A DNA stretch of 64,000 nucleotides, taken from the NCBI RefSeq assembly GCF_003430825.1, contig NZ_CP024047.1, positions 3,224,001 through 3,288,000 of the forward strand, in the 5' to 3' direction. The notes under the pieces are model-generated. The model ran no database searches. It was not told the origin of the DNA and saw only the letters and a list, made by a program, of their open reading frames with translations. The DNA comes from Natrarchaeobaculum sulfurireducens (lineage in GTDB: Archaea; Halobacteriota; Halobacteria; Halobacteriales; Natrialbaceae). Shown in pieces: positions 2,202 to 43,223 of this stretch. Numbering within the stretch: the stretch's first letter is position 1; every line of letters starts with the position of its first letter. The translations under genes were made by a program, and so were the position numbers.

Positions 2202-3758
2202 TCAGGACACAGCAGACCCGAGACTGCTCCCGGTCGCCGTGGGGGCGTCGACGCTTGCGGCCACCTCGACGTCAGCGCTTGCGGCTACGTCGAGGTCAAC
2301 ATCCGCGGCCATACTGGCGTTGGCGCTCGCGTTCCCACCGGCTTCGAGGGTTGCGTCTGTATCGACATCGGCGTCAGCATCAGTGCTCGCGTCTCCGTCG
2401 GCGGTGGCGTGGATCTCCTCGAGGGCGTCGACGTCCGGCCCGCCGACGATCGTCACCCGCTCGTCGTCGACGAATACGTGGAAAGCCCCAGCGAAGCCGC
2501 CGTCGTCGATGCGGTAGGTGTCGCTGTCGGCCCCGGCATCAACCGGGTCGGCACCGTTGGCCTCGAGGACCCCTCGGTAGGCGTCCGCGAACGCCTCGGC
2601 GTCGGCGGCGTCCGCCCAGGCGAGTTTCCAGACGTGGGCCGTCACGTTGTCGTCCGTCTCCTCGTCGGTGTGTTCGTACGCCGTGAGCGTATCACCGGCC
2701 CAGCCATCGGTCGTCGGGTGGGTGTAGTTGTAGGGTGCCAGCTCGGAGCCGCCCTCGGTAAGCGGGCGATCGACGACGCCGTTCGTCCACAGCGACCCGA
2801 ACAGCGTCGCCTCGCCGATCGTCTCCGTCCGAATCTCGCCGTCGTCGTCGTCGGTGATCGGGTCCCACGCGTCGCTCGAGCGATCGGTGATGTCGACGTC
2901 GACCGGCTCGTCGTCCGGATATCGCGCGGGATGGATCACCTGCGAGGTGCTCACCGGGCGGTCGTCGAACGCCCGATCGACGGCCGACCAGCCCTCGGTC
3001 TCGTGGAGGTGCGAGACGAACGCCGGTCCCTCGGCGTACGGGGCGTAAATAGAGAGGAACAACCCGAGGTTGAACGGACGATCCCCGGGCTCGAGTTCGG
3101 CCGGCGTGCCGGGATCGGGGAGACACTGCCACTCGTCGGCACAGCGCTCGTCGTACAGGTATGGCAGGTAGTTCGCCTCGCCCTCGATCAGTCCCAGTTC
3201 CGCGCGGCGCTCGTCGATCGTCTCCCCCTCGCGCTCGAGGCCGAAGTGCTGATCCTGAAGTGCGTGCGTGAGTTCGTGGACGAGCGTCCCGCGATCGATC
3301 CGGATCTCGTCGCTGTCGTCGGCAACGAGGACGATCCGATCGCTCGAGTAGTAGCCCTGGACGGCATCGCCGTAGAGTGCCTCGAATTCGTCGTTAACGT
3401 CGGTTTCGCCGTCGACGACGAACGGTGCCCGCCATACCTCGTTTCTGAACGTCGACGCCGCCTCGGGCTCGCCGCGCTGCTCGCGGTACTCCTCGCGTGT
3501 GATCACCTCGATATCGACGGCGCGTTCGAACTTCATGCCACGTATCACCTCGAGACGTGCCATCGAGCGATAGGTGACGGCCTCGAGTTCGTCCTCGGTG
3601 AGCGTCGCCTCCTCCCCGAACGCGAACTCGTCATCGGCGGCATAGCCCGCCACAGAGCCGAGTTCGCGGTCAGTATCGAGTTGCCCCGGCGTTCCGGGAA
3701 CCGTACAGCCCGAGAGGACGACGAGAACGACGACCGCGAAGAGAGTCCCCCGACGCAT
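2202..3758 (-). CDS. Hvo_1808-family surface lipoprotein with HExxH motif
   Basis: This is a 518-residue exported protein. The N-terminus has a lipoprotein signal peptide with the lipobox LSGC (Cys18), so the product should be anchored outside the membrane by lipid. The body matches the haloarchaeal Hvo_1808 surface-protein family. It contains HELTHALQDQHF (His161, Glu162, His165), the zincin-type metal-binding and catalytic signature, so a metallopeptidase role is plausible but unproven. Residues from about 450 are an extreme Ala/Asp/Val/Thr low-complexity tail with two NAS glycosylation-type sequons and no membrane helix. It is followed in tandem (76 bases) by a paralogue at 3835-5592, which is anchored differently. 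Confidence 0.85.
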   Translation of the reverse strand: MRRGTLFAVVVLVVLSGCTVPGTPGQLDTDRELGSVAGYAADDEFAFGEEATLTEDELEAVTYRSMARLEVIRGMKFERAVDIEVITREEYREQRGEPEAASTFRNEVWRAPFVVDGETDVNDEFEALYGDAVQGYYSSDRIVLVADDSDEIRIDRGTLVHELTHALQDQHFGLEREGETIDERRAELGLIEGEANYLPYLYDERCADEWQCLPDPGTPAELEPGDRPFNLGLFLSIYAPYAEGPAFVSHLHETEGWSAVDRAFDDRPVSTSQVIHPARYPDDEPVDVDITDRSSDAWDPITDDDDGEIRTETIGEATLFGSLWTNGVVDRPLTEGGSELAPYNYTHPTTDGWAGDTLTAYEHTDEETDDNVTAHVWKLAWADAADAEAFADAYRGVLEANGADPVDAGADSDTYRIDDGGFAGAFHVFVDDERVTIVGGPDVDALEEIHATADGDASTDADADVDTDATLEAGGNASANASMAADVDLDVAASADVEVAASVDAPTATGSSLGSAVS

Positions 3759-41630: not shown

Positions 41631-42047
41631 TCATCGAGGGATTGTACCGGTGAATTCGTACGCCCGTGCCCAGTTTATCGAAGGATGGTCGATCTGAGCC
41701 TCAAACCGAAGTTCCATCTTCTGTTCGGTCGCGTCGGCAGCATCGATCCAATAGAACGTCTCATTAGCCGGATAGTATACGAAGAACGCGTCGACCTCAC
41801 CGTCGTACGTCTGTTCGTGATACCGTCCGTTCTTCGTCGTCTGGGAGTGCGTATTGAATCGTATCGTCTCCGGCTTGTTCGTCCAGGCAGTCTTACACTG
41901 AATCCGGTATAGGTCGCCTTCGTCGTCGACGACGAGATCGTACTTGTCGTTATCACCAAACGGGACTGAGATGCTGTAGCCGGCGACAATAAGGGTCGTG
42001 ATCGCTCTCGCTTCCGTTTCGTCTCCGATCGCTTTCGAATTTCGCAC
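41631..42047 (-). CDS. PD-(D/E)XK nuclease, group-I-intron-associated type
   Basis: The 138-residue protein fits the small PD-(D/E)XK nuclease family named for its link with group I introns (PDDEXK_5-type, from memory). Active-site residues, numbered from the GTG start, are Glu12 (GDETEAR), Asp37 (KYDLVVDDEG) and Gln50-x-Lys52 (IQCKT). The start is a GTG at 42047. An earlier TTG at 42071 is in frame, but TTTTAAT on the minus strand (42071-42077) is a TATA box 27 bases before 42047, so a leaderless GTG start is favoured. It is next to duplicated tRNA-Asp genes. Confidence 0.75.
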   Translation of the reverse strand: MRNSKAIGDETEARAITTLIVAGYSISVPFGDNDKYDLVVDDEGDLYRIQCKTAWTNKPETIRFNTHSQTTKNGRYHEQTYDGEVDAFFVYYPANETFYWIDAADATEQKMELRFEAQIDHPSINWARAYEFTGTIPR

Positions 42048-42441
42048 GACTGTAGGTGCTGCCTCTTCCAATTAAAACGGTCGCCCGTACCAGACGACGC
42101 ATCCAGAAATTGGATCTCCCTGTCCGAGAAAGGCAACTGATCGACCGTATACGAAACGGATCTGGGGCACTCGAGATGGATTCGGAGCCAGTCCAACGAG
42201 CCGACGGTAGCGATGGAATGTTTGAGAAGTAAGACTCGAAAAATCTGGTAGACACTATCCTATGATCAAGCCGAATTTTTAGAAAGGTGCTCGAGGCGGG
42301 AGTTGAACCGGAGCCAGACGTGCTTGTTCACTTCGTTCGCTGTGCGCGACTGTCAAGGCTCAAATCCCTCGTACCGTTTTTCGATCTCAGAATATTCGCG
42401 GCGAGCACGCTGGCCGCTCGTGGGAATTGAGTATCGGAAAA
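42048..42441. other. Region between nuclease gene and first tRNA-Asp, 394 bases
   Basis: It holds the nuclease promoter (42071-42077), a short open minus-strand stretch at about 42080-42240 (WLRIHLECPRSVSYTVDQLP, then FSDREIQFLDASSG) that reads like a decayed protein with no recognised match, a degenerate tRNA 3' fragment (42289-42309), and a 75-base stretch related to the one before the second tRNA-Asp. It looks like remains of an integrated element. Confidence 0.45.
42289..42309 (-). repeat. Degenerate tRNA-Asp 3' fragment
   Basis: 21 bases match the 3' end of the adjacent tRNA-Asp genes (T-arm and acceptor part, 19 of 21 identical) on the minus strand. The rest of a tRNA is absent. It may be an old attachment-site scar. 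Confidence 0.55.
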
Positions 42442-42528
42442 CGCCCGAGGCGGGATTTGAACCCGCGTCACAACCGTGACAGGGTTGTATGATGGGCCAC
42501 TACACCACCCGGGCTTGCAACTCTTCGT
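42414..42528. repeat. 115-bp direct duplication, copy 1 (contains tRNA-Asp)
   Basis: Bases 42414-42528 are identical to 42794-42908 (offset 380). The block includes the tRNA-Asp gene, 28 bases downstream of it and 14 upstream. Copy 2 is annotated at 42794-42908. Confidence 0.9.
42442..42514 (-). tRNA. tRNA-Asp (anticodon GUC)
   Basis: A 73-base cloverleaf on the minus strand starts GCCCGGGTGGTGTAGTGGCC. The acceptor stem GCCCGGG pairs with CTCGGGC (one G·U). The anticodon stem CAACC/GGTTG encloses the loop CTGTCAC, so the anticodon is GTC (Asp). The T-arm is CGCGGGTTCAAATCCCGC. The 3' CCA is not encoded. A TATA-like TTAATAC at 42541-42547 (minus strand) is 27-33 bases upstream. An identical copy is at 42822-42894. 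Confidence 0.93.
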
Positions 42529-42821
42529 TTTCAGGAGAGAGTATTAAGGGTTTTGTTCCGGTGTCGGCTATGTTATCGGTTCCGGACACAGTATATCTCA
42601 CTAACAATTTTCGGACGCAGGAGACGATCGCGTTGGAAGGGGCACGAGAGACAAGACAGCGCAGCGTGTCGGTCGTTCACGAAGTTAAATTACGAGAAGG
42701 TGCCCGAGGCGGGATTTGAACCACGATCGTGCCGCTCACTGCGTTCGCTCCACCCATTTTTCGATCTCGGAATACTCGTGGCCAGCATGCTGACCGCTCG
42801 TGGGAATTGAGTATCGGAAAA
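42515..42821. other. Spacer between the two tRNA-Asp genes, 307 bases
   Basis: It holds the tRNA promoter of copy 1 (GTATTAAG at 42541-42548), a second tRNA 3' fragment (42702-42722), and stretches shared with the left spacer (TTTTTCGATCTC and GGAATTGAGTATCGG). I see no gene; two short plus-strand frames across it are shadows. Confidence 0.5.
42702..42722 (-). repeat. tRNA-Asp 3' fragment, exact
   Basis: 21 bases (GCCCGAGGCGGGATTTGAAC plus one more C) are identical to 42443-42463, the 3' part of tRNA-Asp. The upstream half of a tRNA is missing; ACGATCGTGCC follows instead. This pattern is usual where an element has integrated at a tRNA gene and left an attachment site. Confidence 0.7.
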
Positions 42822-42908
42822 CGCCCGAGGCGGGATTTGAACCCGCGTCACAACCGTGACAGGGTTGTATGATGGGCCACTACACCACCCGGGCTTGCAA
42901 CTCTTCGT
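42794..42908. repeat. 115-bp direct duplication, copy 2 (contains tRNA-Asp)
   Basis: This block is identical to 42414-42528. The flanks resemble copy 1 but carry scattered substitutions, so the duplication is older than the identical part implies, or gene conversion has kept the tRNA core uniform. Confidence 0.9.
42822..42894 (-). tRNA. tRNA-Asp (anticodon GUC), second copy
   Basis: This gene is identical base for base to the tRNA-Asp at 42442-42514: same acceptor stem, anticodon loop CTGTCAC and T-arm. A TATA-like GTATTAAG lies at 42921-42928, 27-34 bases upstream, as in copy 1. Both can therefore be expressed separately. Confidence 0.93.
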
Positions 42909-43223
42909 AGCCGGGTGTGGGTATTAAGACTTTCCAATCGACCACCGTTTGGTAGGGTGGGACGGGCCACGATTGGGACCTCGAGCGACGGTCTCGAGCG
43001 GATTTCGCGCCACCAGAGTGTCATAGCGTACCACGACCCACAAGGAATTTAACCGATAGTCGGGTACTGGCACACGTGATCGGACCTCCCGGTCAGGTCA
43101 GCCCGGGCGGTTAGCTGTGCTTGTGGATCGAGTTAGTAACGGTTAAATGCGTCCCCCCGATAACTGTCTGTAGTATCTCGTGACAGCCACTTCTCTCCCG
43201 ATAGCCCACACGCACATCGACAC
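42895..43223. promoter_or_regulatory. Promoter region of the RNA polymerase cluster, 329 bases
   Basis: The left end is the promoter of tRNA-Asp copy 2. ATTTAAC (43047-43053) and TTAAAT (43143-43148) are two candidate TATA boxes for rpoH at 43224; the second would give an untranslated leader of roughly 50 bases. GACCT/AGGTC (43083-43099) is a short inverted repeat. No gene is seen. Confidence 0.5.

Follow-up and report, generated by a model that had tools for sequence, protein, structure and literature searches.

Two tRNA-Asp Genes and Their Downstream Units

The window, a stretch of 64,000 nucleotides of Natrarchaeobaculum sulfurireducens DNA, covers what we take to be the haloarchaeal rpoH-rpoB-rpoA region, with a pair of tRNA-Asp genes upstream of rpoH. 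Its nearest named relatives by RpoB'' were Natrialbaceae. An earlier note on this DNA had described two identical tRNA-Asp genes 380 bp apart in an exact 115-nt block, and this was confirmed by ARAGORN and by the sequence: an exact repeat of 115 nt was found at offset 380, containing both genes on the minus strand. A wider repeat of 189 nt with 89% identity (42365-42553 / 42745-42933) encloses it. Each gene is followed by a unit (121 and 154 nt, with an H1 hairpin of 64 nt in each) that runs from H1 through a second segment to a copy of the last ~20 nt of the tRNA. The features, with the basis of each assignment in brackets, are as follows:

42822..42894, minus strand: tRNA-Asp(gtc), the copy nearer rpoH (ARAGORN)
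42442..42514, minus strand: tRNA-Asp(gtc), second copy, same sequence as the first (ARAGORN and sequence)
42758..42821, minus strand: H1 hairpin of unit 1, directly 3' of the tRNA (helix TTTTC..GAAAA)
42722..42757, minus strand: M2 of unit 1, decayed type b by eye, without inverted tail piece (comparison by eye with type b modules)
42701..42721, minus strand: tail copy of unit 1, discriminator base included, 20/21 (sequence)
42378..42441, minus strand: H1 hairpin of unit 2 (sequence)
42359..42368, minus strand: inverted tail piece (anti) of unit 2, 10 nt, GGGATTTGAG (sequence)
42309..42358, minus strand: M2 module of unit 2, type a, 50 nt (sequence; core found class-wide)
42288..42308, minus strand: tail copy of unit 2, decaying (sequence)
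42414..42528, no strand assigned: exact 115-nt repeat, copy A (sequence)
42794..42908, no strand assigned: exact 115-nt repeat, copy B (sequence)

The two tRNA 3'-end fragments reported in the earlier note were also recovered. The fragment at 42702-42722 is an exact 21-nt copy of the tail, only the adjoining discriminator base being different, and the one at 42289-42309 is a 21-nt copy with two mismatches. The general layout of a unit is tRNA tail, H1, inverted tail piece (anti), M2 and tail copy. The two units of the window were not simple duplicates of each other, because the distal one carries an anti piece and a type a module, whereas the proximal one has no anti piece and a different, decayed module. 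Hence, a single duplication that carried an attachment site along, as had been proposed, was not supported for the locus, which consists of two family members, one fairly intact and one decayed.

The tRNA-Asp Locus in Related Genomes

Among 80 named rpoB loci, tRNA-Asp was present in 76, at least two copies of it in 51 and extra tail copies in 37. At least two tRNA-Asp copies without any extra tail copy were observed at 23 of the 80 loci, a result that the earlier note had itself named as contrary to its reading. The arrays at these rpoB loci reached five extra tail copies. Their units follow the order tail-H1-anti-M2-tail, and more than one M2 type can occur in an array. Some other contigs contained N between or inside the tRNA copies (loci L005, L025, L037 and L038), so that individual counts there may be off.

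A gene for a PDDEXK_5 endonuclease-like protein (PF11645, E 6e-40) adjoins tRNA-Asp at 41631-42071 of the window (minus strand). In some relatives (L012, L014, L029), inspection by eye also showed the apparent start of such a gene next to tRNA-Asp.

Copies of the Own Tail at Other tRNA Genes

The search was extended to the tRNA genes of the whole genome (G000, 45 tRNA hits) and of a congener (G064, 46 tRNA hits). After dropping repeats, genes with too little flank and genes with no plain T loop, 43 and 45 genes, respectively, were tested for a copy of their own tail with ≤3/20 mismatches within 600 nt. Such a copy was detected downstream on the same strand at 16/43 genes in G000 and 20/45 in G064, and downstream on the opposite strand at none in either genome. 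Upstream, the opposite strand yielded none in either genome and the same strand one in G000 (by reading, the sister tRNA-Asp unit) and none in G064. The tRNAs concerned include Asn, Asp, Gly, His, Ile, Leu, Lys, Met, Phe, Ser and Val in G000, and additionally Arg, Glu and Gln in G064; more than half of the tRNA genes of both genomes had no own-tail copy.

A total of 204 T-strand tail copies were collected from haloarchaeal loci (287 distinct tRNA genes, many of them picked as pattern matches), and 133 of these sit 100-159 nt from the tRNA tail. A complementary 9-mer (≥7/9) was present upstream of 184 of the 204 copies and was perfect in 118. The inverted piece often matches its tRNA, as with CGGAGATTTGAA at Arg(gcg), GGCAGATTTGAA at Val(gac) and AACTCGG at Ile. 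Each unit bears the tail of the tRNA that it follows.

Three minor observations concern tail copies and tRNA genes. A one-base insertion recurs in the tail copy, with TTCACAATCC instead of TTCAAATCC (L189, L200, L271, L272, L279), as if the T-loop sequence had been repeatedly broken. Two unit-free tRNA-Thr genes of the window's genome (L086, L093) have another 3' flank motif in common, CTGYAGGATTCGGTAC. Finally, tRNA-Gly(ccc) of G064 (L253) is present in three tandem copies 143 bp apart, and a similar pair occurs in G000, its second member being called Glu(ctc) by ARAGORN.

Distribution of the Units and Their Modules in Halobacteria

A strict pattern, TTCAAATC-(48-78)-GATTTGAA-(24-54)-TTCAAATC, was searched with the reversed pattern as a control. 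Matches were obtained in 230/292 Halobacteria genomes and 71/77 genera, and the reversed control gave 0 throughout. In a draw across the phylum the pattern was found in 62/392 genomes, every one among its 81 Halobacteria, and in 0/311 genomes outside this class. The restriction to Halobacteria is true of the strict pattern and not of the layout, since the pattern fixes one T-loop sequence. All 30 of the fetched strict-pattern places (of many more) were located at or within ~130 nt of a tRNA gene.

The M2 modules were similarly widespread. The type a core AGTCGCGC[AG]CAGCGA..GCGAGCACGTCT was found in 92/292 Halobacteria genomes and the type b core CAGNGAG..CGACCGTGGTTC in 85/116 genomes, with no match of either reversed control. 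A tRNA lay within 700 nt in 32/33 fetched type a matches, the exception being L189 and the tRNA calls at L187 and L209 being doubtful. For type b, a tRNA was located ≤600 nt upstream on the same strand in 29/30 fetched matches, the exception (L267) being probably a chance match, and the tRNA's own tail was recovered at ≥15/20 in 21/30. Orientation was constant (60:0 for type a and 37:1 for type b). The types nest, the type a core being found within the type b frame. A type a query against its own genome also gave partial matches of 19-23 nt away from the units, and thus the inner motif is not confined to them. No description of a hairpin-repeat family of this kind was found in titles and abstracts among the literature matches listed, subscription papers being mostly outside this search. 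The hairpin repeats at haloarchaeal tRNA ends are apparently a large, undescribed family.

Mismatches in the Hairpin Arms

Pairing that is kept in a transcript should leave G-U far above A-C, whereas at the DNA level both mismatches are equivalent. Therefore, G-T and A-C mismatches were counted in helices found by Watson-Crick scoring only. The G-T : A-C ratio was 53:38 in H1, 39:37 in tail:anti and 27:22 in M2 other than type a, compared with 66:8 in the acceptor and T stems of the tRNAs at the same loci. The unit helices differed from the tRNA stems with a Fisher p of 3e-5 or lower, values that are too optimistic because the units share ancestry. A second count, taken around the GA..GA motif only, gave 25:34 in H1 and 14:39 in M2. 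By rate, a mild G-T excess was observed in tail:anti (39/609 possible cells vs 37/1047 for A-C). In the type a hairpins (e.g., window 42309-42358) there were 32 A-C and 1 G-T, mostly one fixed C-A mismatch; read on the other strand, this fixed pair is a G-T. The helix adjoining the AGTCGC core of type a covaries, with Watson-Crick pairs in 46/48 and 43/48 cases at its two inner levels, three main pair types and no G-U at these levels.

The hairpin arms are thus without the strong G-U preference of tRNA stems. Complementarity that is kept without RNA-like wobble argues for a process at the DNA level, either templated correction of palindromes or a recombinase that reads folded DNA, and the arms are read as parts of DNA repeats that would spread from tRNA to tRNA. 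Conservation of a sense-strand RNA as the main force was rejected on the mismatch counts.

Turnover and Proposed Spread of the Units

The nearest relative of each M2 was determined for 43 units of the two congeners. It was found at another tRNA of the same genome for 25 units, at another tRNA of the other genome for 9, at the same tRNA of the other genome for 5 and at the same tRNA of the same genome for 4. This set includes at least one artefact (a tRNA-Cys entry that is the tRNA-Lys unit read from the other strand) and 19 untyped modules, short type b modules easily resemble one another, and the argument for spread of M2 rests on these two congeners. Type b made up 11/22 units in G064 and 2/21 in G000 (p 0.007, the units not being independent), and its strict pattern gave 17 and 2 matches, respectively. 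A few M2 types are common to different tRNAs and differ between the congeners at the same tRNA.

Gain or loss of whole units was visible in close relatives. Between Natrinema hispanicum DSM 18328 and CDM_6, and also between Natrialba aegyptia and N. taiwanensis, a tRNA-Asp unit between the tails is exactly present or absent, which could be due to gene conversion between two tRNA-Asp copies. At tRNA-Leu(caa) the site is empty in G000, and in G064 two copies of the tail plus 34 nt of flank enclose 40 nt of anti and type b M2.

The explanation that we prefer, and hold with roughly even confidence, is that a haloarchaeal family of short non-coding repeats colonises tRNA 3' ends and spreads at the DNA level. 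The units would arise and move as DNA: M2 would be copied between tRNA loci across the common T-loop sequence GGTTCRAATCC, and the local tail would be copied around it in direct and inverted orientation, either through template switching or by a putative recombinase that uses the folded palindrome as its substrate. Gene conversion would then keep the parts of the unit in register. The units may accordingly be pictured as DNA hairpins, non-autonomous and perhaps selfish, whose ends are fitted anew to each tRNA. A more specific proposal, which we put forward only tentatively, is that of a target-adaptive DNA hairpin element, in which a family of modules would move among tRNA genes and each time rebuild both ends (direct and inverted) from the local tail.

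A somewhat less probable alternative is that ordinary mutation and repair suffice, tandem duplication of the tail, fold-back copying and gene conversion having built and homogenised the units with no mobile element or function. The lack of a strong G-U preference fits palindrome-templated correction of DNA, and the two tRNA-Asp copies of Natrialba aegyptia, whose units are nearly identical, together with the identical units found in tandem in G064, are in favor of this alternative. So are the repeat-mediated deletions of Haloquadratum, two of them at prophage-related partial tRNA duplications, described in one report (PMC3119063). Nevertheless, these processes cannot alone yield the same M2 cores at many tRNAs class-wide in a fixed orientation. 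A point against the preferred explanation is that the conservation of the M2 cores could reflect selection for a function.

Comparison With the Escherichia coli tyrT Repeats and Other Systems

Six loci of E. coli were compared: tyrT, argV-Y-Z-Q, three without copies, and leuX, for which there was too little downstream sequence. In E. coli K-12 the 19-nt tail of tRNA-Tyr recurs 178, 356 and 534 nt after tyrV and 175 nt after tyrT. A perfect inverted 10-nt piece of the tail is present in each of the three tyrV spacers and a 9/10 piece at tyrT, and a hairpin-rich module follows the inverted piece at both. RF00391 gave four matches at the tyrT/tyrV locus, and rttR is annotated there, at tyrT, as a small RNA; rtT is released as a small RNA together with the tRNA. 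To our knowledge, the origin of the tyrT repeats was never clear. At argV-Y-Z-Q, tail copies were found 114-116 nt downstream of three of the four tRNA-Arg genes (0-1 mismatches of 19). The inverted piece is 9/10 alike at one and weaker at the others. The module has CGTTGC..GCAACG.CCCGAAGGGCGA..GAGTA in common with that of tyrT, and RF00391 was below its cut-off at this locus (L292, E. coli K-12 2817784-2818549).

In rtT / RttR / tpr (RF00391), as in the haloarchaeal units, every repeat includes a copy of the 3' end of the tRNA before it, and the layout at tyrT is the same, that of argV-Y-Z-Q being looser. However, the H1 and M2 sequences differ, and the haloarchaeal units accompany more than a third of the tRNA genes in the two genomes tested, with the pattern in most sampled genomes of the class. 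The RF00391 covariance model matched neither haloarchaeal genome (G000, G064) at E ≤ 1, with 150/465 and 150/520 first-look candidates scored and a positive E. coli control, and RtT had no match at E ≤ 1 in the 9 sources tested. Because of this lack of RF00391 matches, the units were set apart from RtT despite the shared layout, and membership of this Rfam family was rejected. A match to Rfam sot0042 (150 bits) was recorded in Halosimplex carlsbadense (L076 2229-2404, plus strand).

That the units are functional structured RNAs of the tRNA trailer, co-transcribed like E. coli rtT and with a role in processing or regulation, is unlikely, although several observations agree with it. In almost all cases the units lie 3' of a tRNA gene and point the same way, their layout is that of tyrT with its annotated small RNA, long hairpins are predicted for them (without a shuffled control), the helix at the AGTCGC core covaries, and tail:anti has its mild G-T excess by rate. 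Against this, G-U is hardly above A-C, unlike in the tRNA stems, there is turnover between congeners, more than half of the tRNAs are without a copy of their own tail, and in the 9 sources tested no unit was matched by an Rfam family at that family's gathering score. If, instead, the target-adaptive DNA hairpin element proposed above is correct, the same layout at tyrT of E. coli, and its looser form at argV-Y-Z-Q, would mean that Archaea and Bacteria both have such a mechanism, as yet undescribed.

Integron attC-like sites, whose folded strand is recombined by an IntI/Xer recombinase, resemble the units in array behaviour only. Of the Haloquadratum elements SMR-A and PATEs, SMR-A, which is about 110 bp long and whose mobilisation is called enigmatic, is like the units in being of similar size, non-coding, haloarchaeal and palindrome-linked, according to PMC3119063. 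The SMRs described there have inverted terminal repeats and no target duplication, and insert into other mobile elements. In contrast, the haloarchaeal units are located at tRNA tails and accompanied by a tail copy, with which the presence of a unit goes hand in hand.

Viruses, Plasmids and Integrative Elements

Archaeal tRNA genes are preferred targets of integrases, and, according to PMC8371274, the integrative elements of archaeal tyrosine recombinases are like the units in the segment that they target and in leaving an intact tRNA plus a tail copy. The prophages of Haloquadratum likewise have tRNA tail duplications (PMC3119063), and the tail copies of the units do resemble the tRNA 3' end. 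The units differ from such elements in having no integrase and no cargo, in being mostly 100-180 bp long and in combining many tRNA targets with one module set. No integrase gene lies between tRNA and tail copy in the window units, which are too short for one (121 and 154 nt), the only overlapping reading frame being a mechanical ORF of 85 aa (42553-42810, plus strand) in one of them; most other tail copies are likewise close to their tRNA.

Neither the type a nor the type b pattern had a match in the viral contigs searched. The long (strict) pattern matched 8 IMG/VR contigs, all AT-rich (GC 0.27-0.38) and without the modules, and 6 of them had no tRNA on the fetched stretch. In one contig (L174) the match lies 149 nt after tRNA-Asn. 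In another, tRNA-rich and AT-rich one (L175, 6186-6310), a tail-anti-tail pattern begins in the 3' end of tRNA-Ala. The eight matches were taken as chance or unrelated, and L175 as chance or a distant parallel. One Natrialba unit used as a query found no match in phage records and matched two plasmid records.

It is thus very improbable that the units are scars of lost integrative elements (proviruses or plasmids) that had their attachment site in the tRNA 3' end. The copied segment, from the T loop to the 3' end, does fall within the region commonly used by integrases, and the preference for archaeal tRNA genes is in its favor; the short and fairly constant size, the conserved internal modules shared between loci, and the lack of module matches in viral contigs and of phage records for the unit query speak against it. 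The earlier note had read the fragments as traces of repeated integration and loss. Copies of tRNA 3' ends with a discrete insert that is gained or lost, as in the two related pairs, agree with part of that reading; its attribution to lost integrative elements does not agree with the 133/204 copies at 100-159 nt, the same modules class-wide and the missing viral module match. The window fragments belong to members of a large repeat family and are not the scar of one lost element. As for an assembly artefact or chance, N between or inside the tRNA-Asp copies of some contigs is outweighed by window copies that differ outside the exact block, a contig of 3.5 Mb, an arrangement that recurs in relatives and in many independent genomes, and a chance expectation of 2e-6 (21-mer, ≤2 mismatches, 2.3 kb, both strands, equal base use), and this explanation can be dismissed.

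Scraps of tRNA downstream of a tRNA gene are usually read as integration scars. In Halobacteria such scraps belong to a structured repeat family that has its own turnover, and searches for att sites, genomic islands or pseudo-tRNAs would be misled by it. Since the haloarchaeal layout occurs at many tRNAs and empty sites exist in relatives, the origin of the tyrT repeats becomes testable by comparison and by capture experiments. The similar layout at two tRNA loci of E. coli suggests that a shared way of building such repeats may exist.

Additionally, the two plasmid records matched by the Natrialba unit were inspected. In the first, a unit is located at a plasmid-borne tRNA-Val. In the second (L182, about 2931-3072), a tRNA-Cys(gca)-like gene contains a type a module immediately ahead of its T loop; for an intron-like reading of this single case, no clear bulge-helix-bulge was seen in the predicted fold. 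When the module of this tRNA array was compared with phage records, one weak match to a bacterial phage was obtained and no other. The record is a plasmid of Haloarcula halophila (NZ_CP119561.1), and the array comprises more than 20 tRNA genes beside a gene with a TROVE domain.
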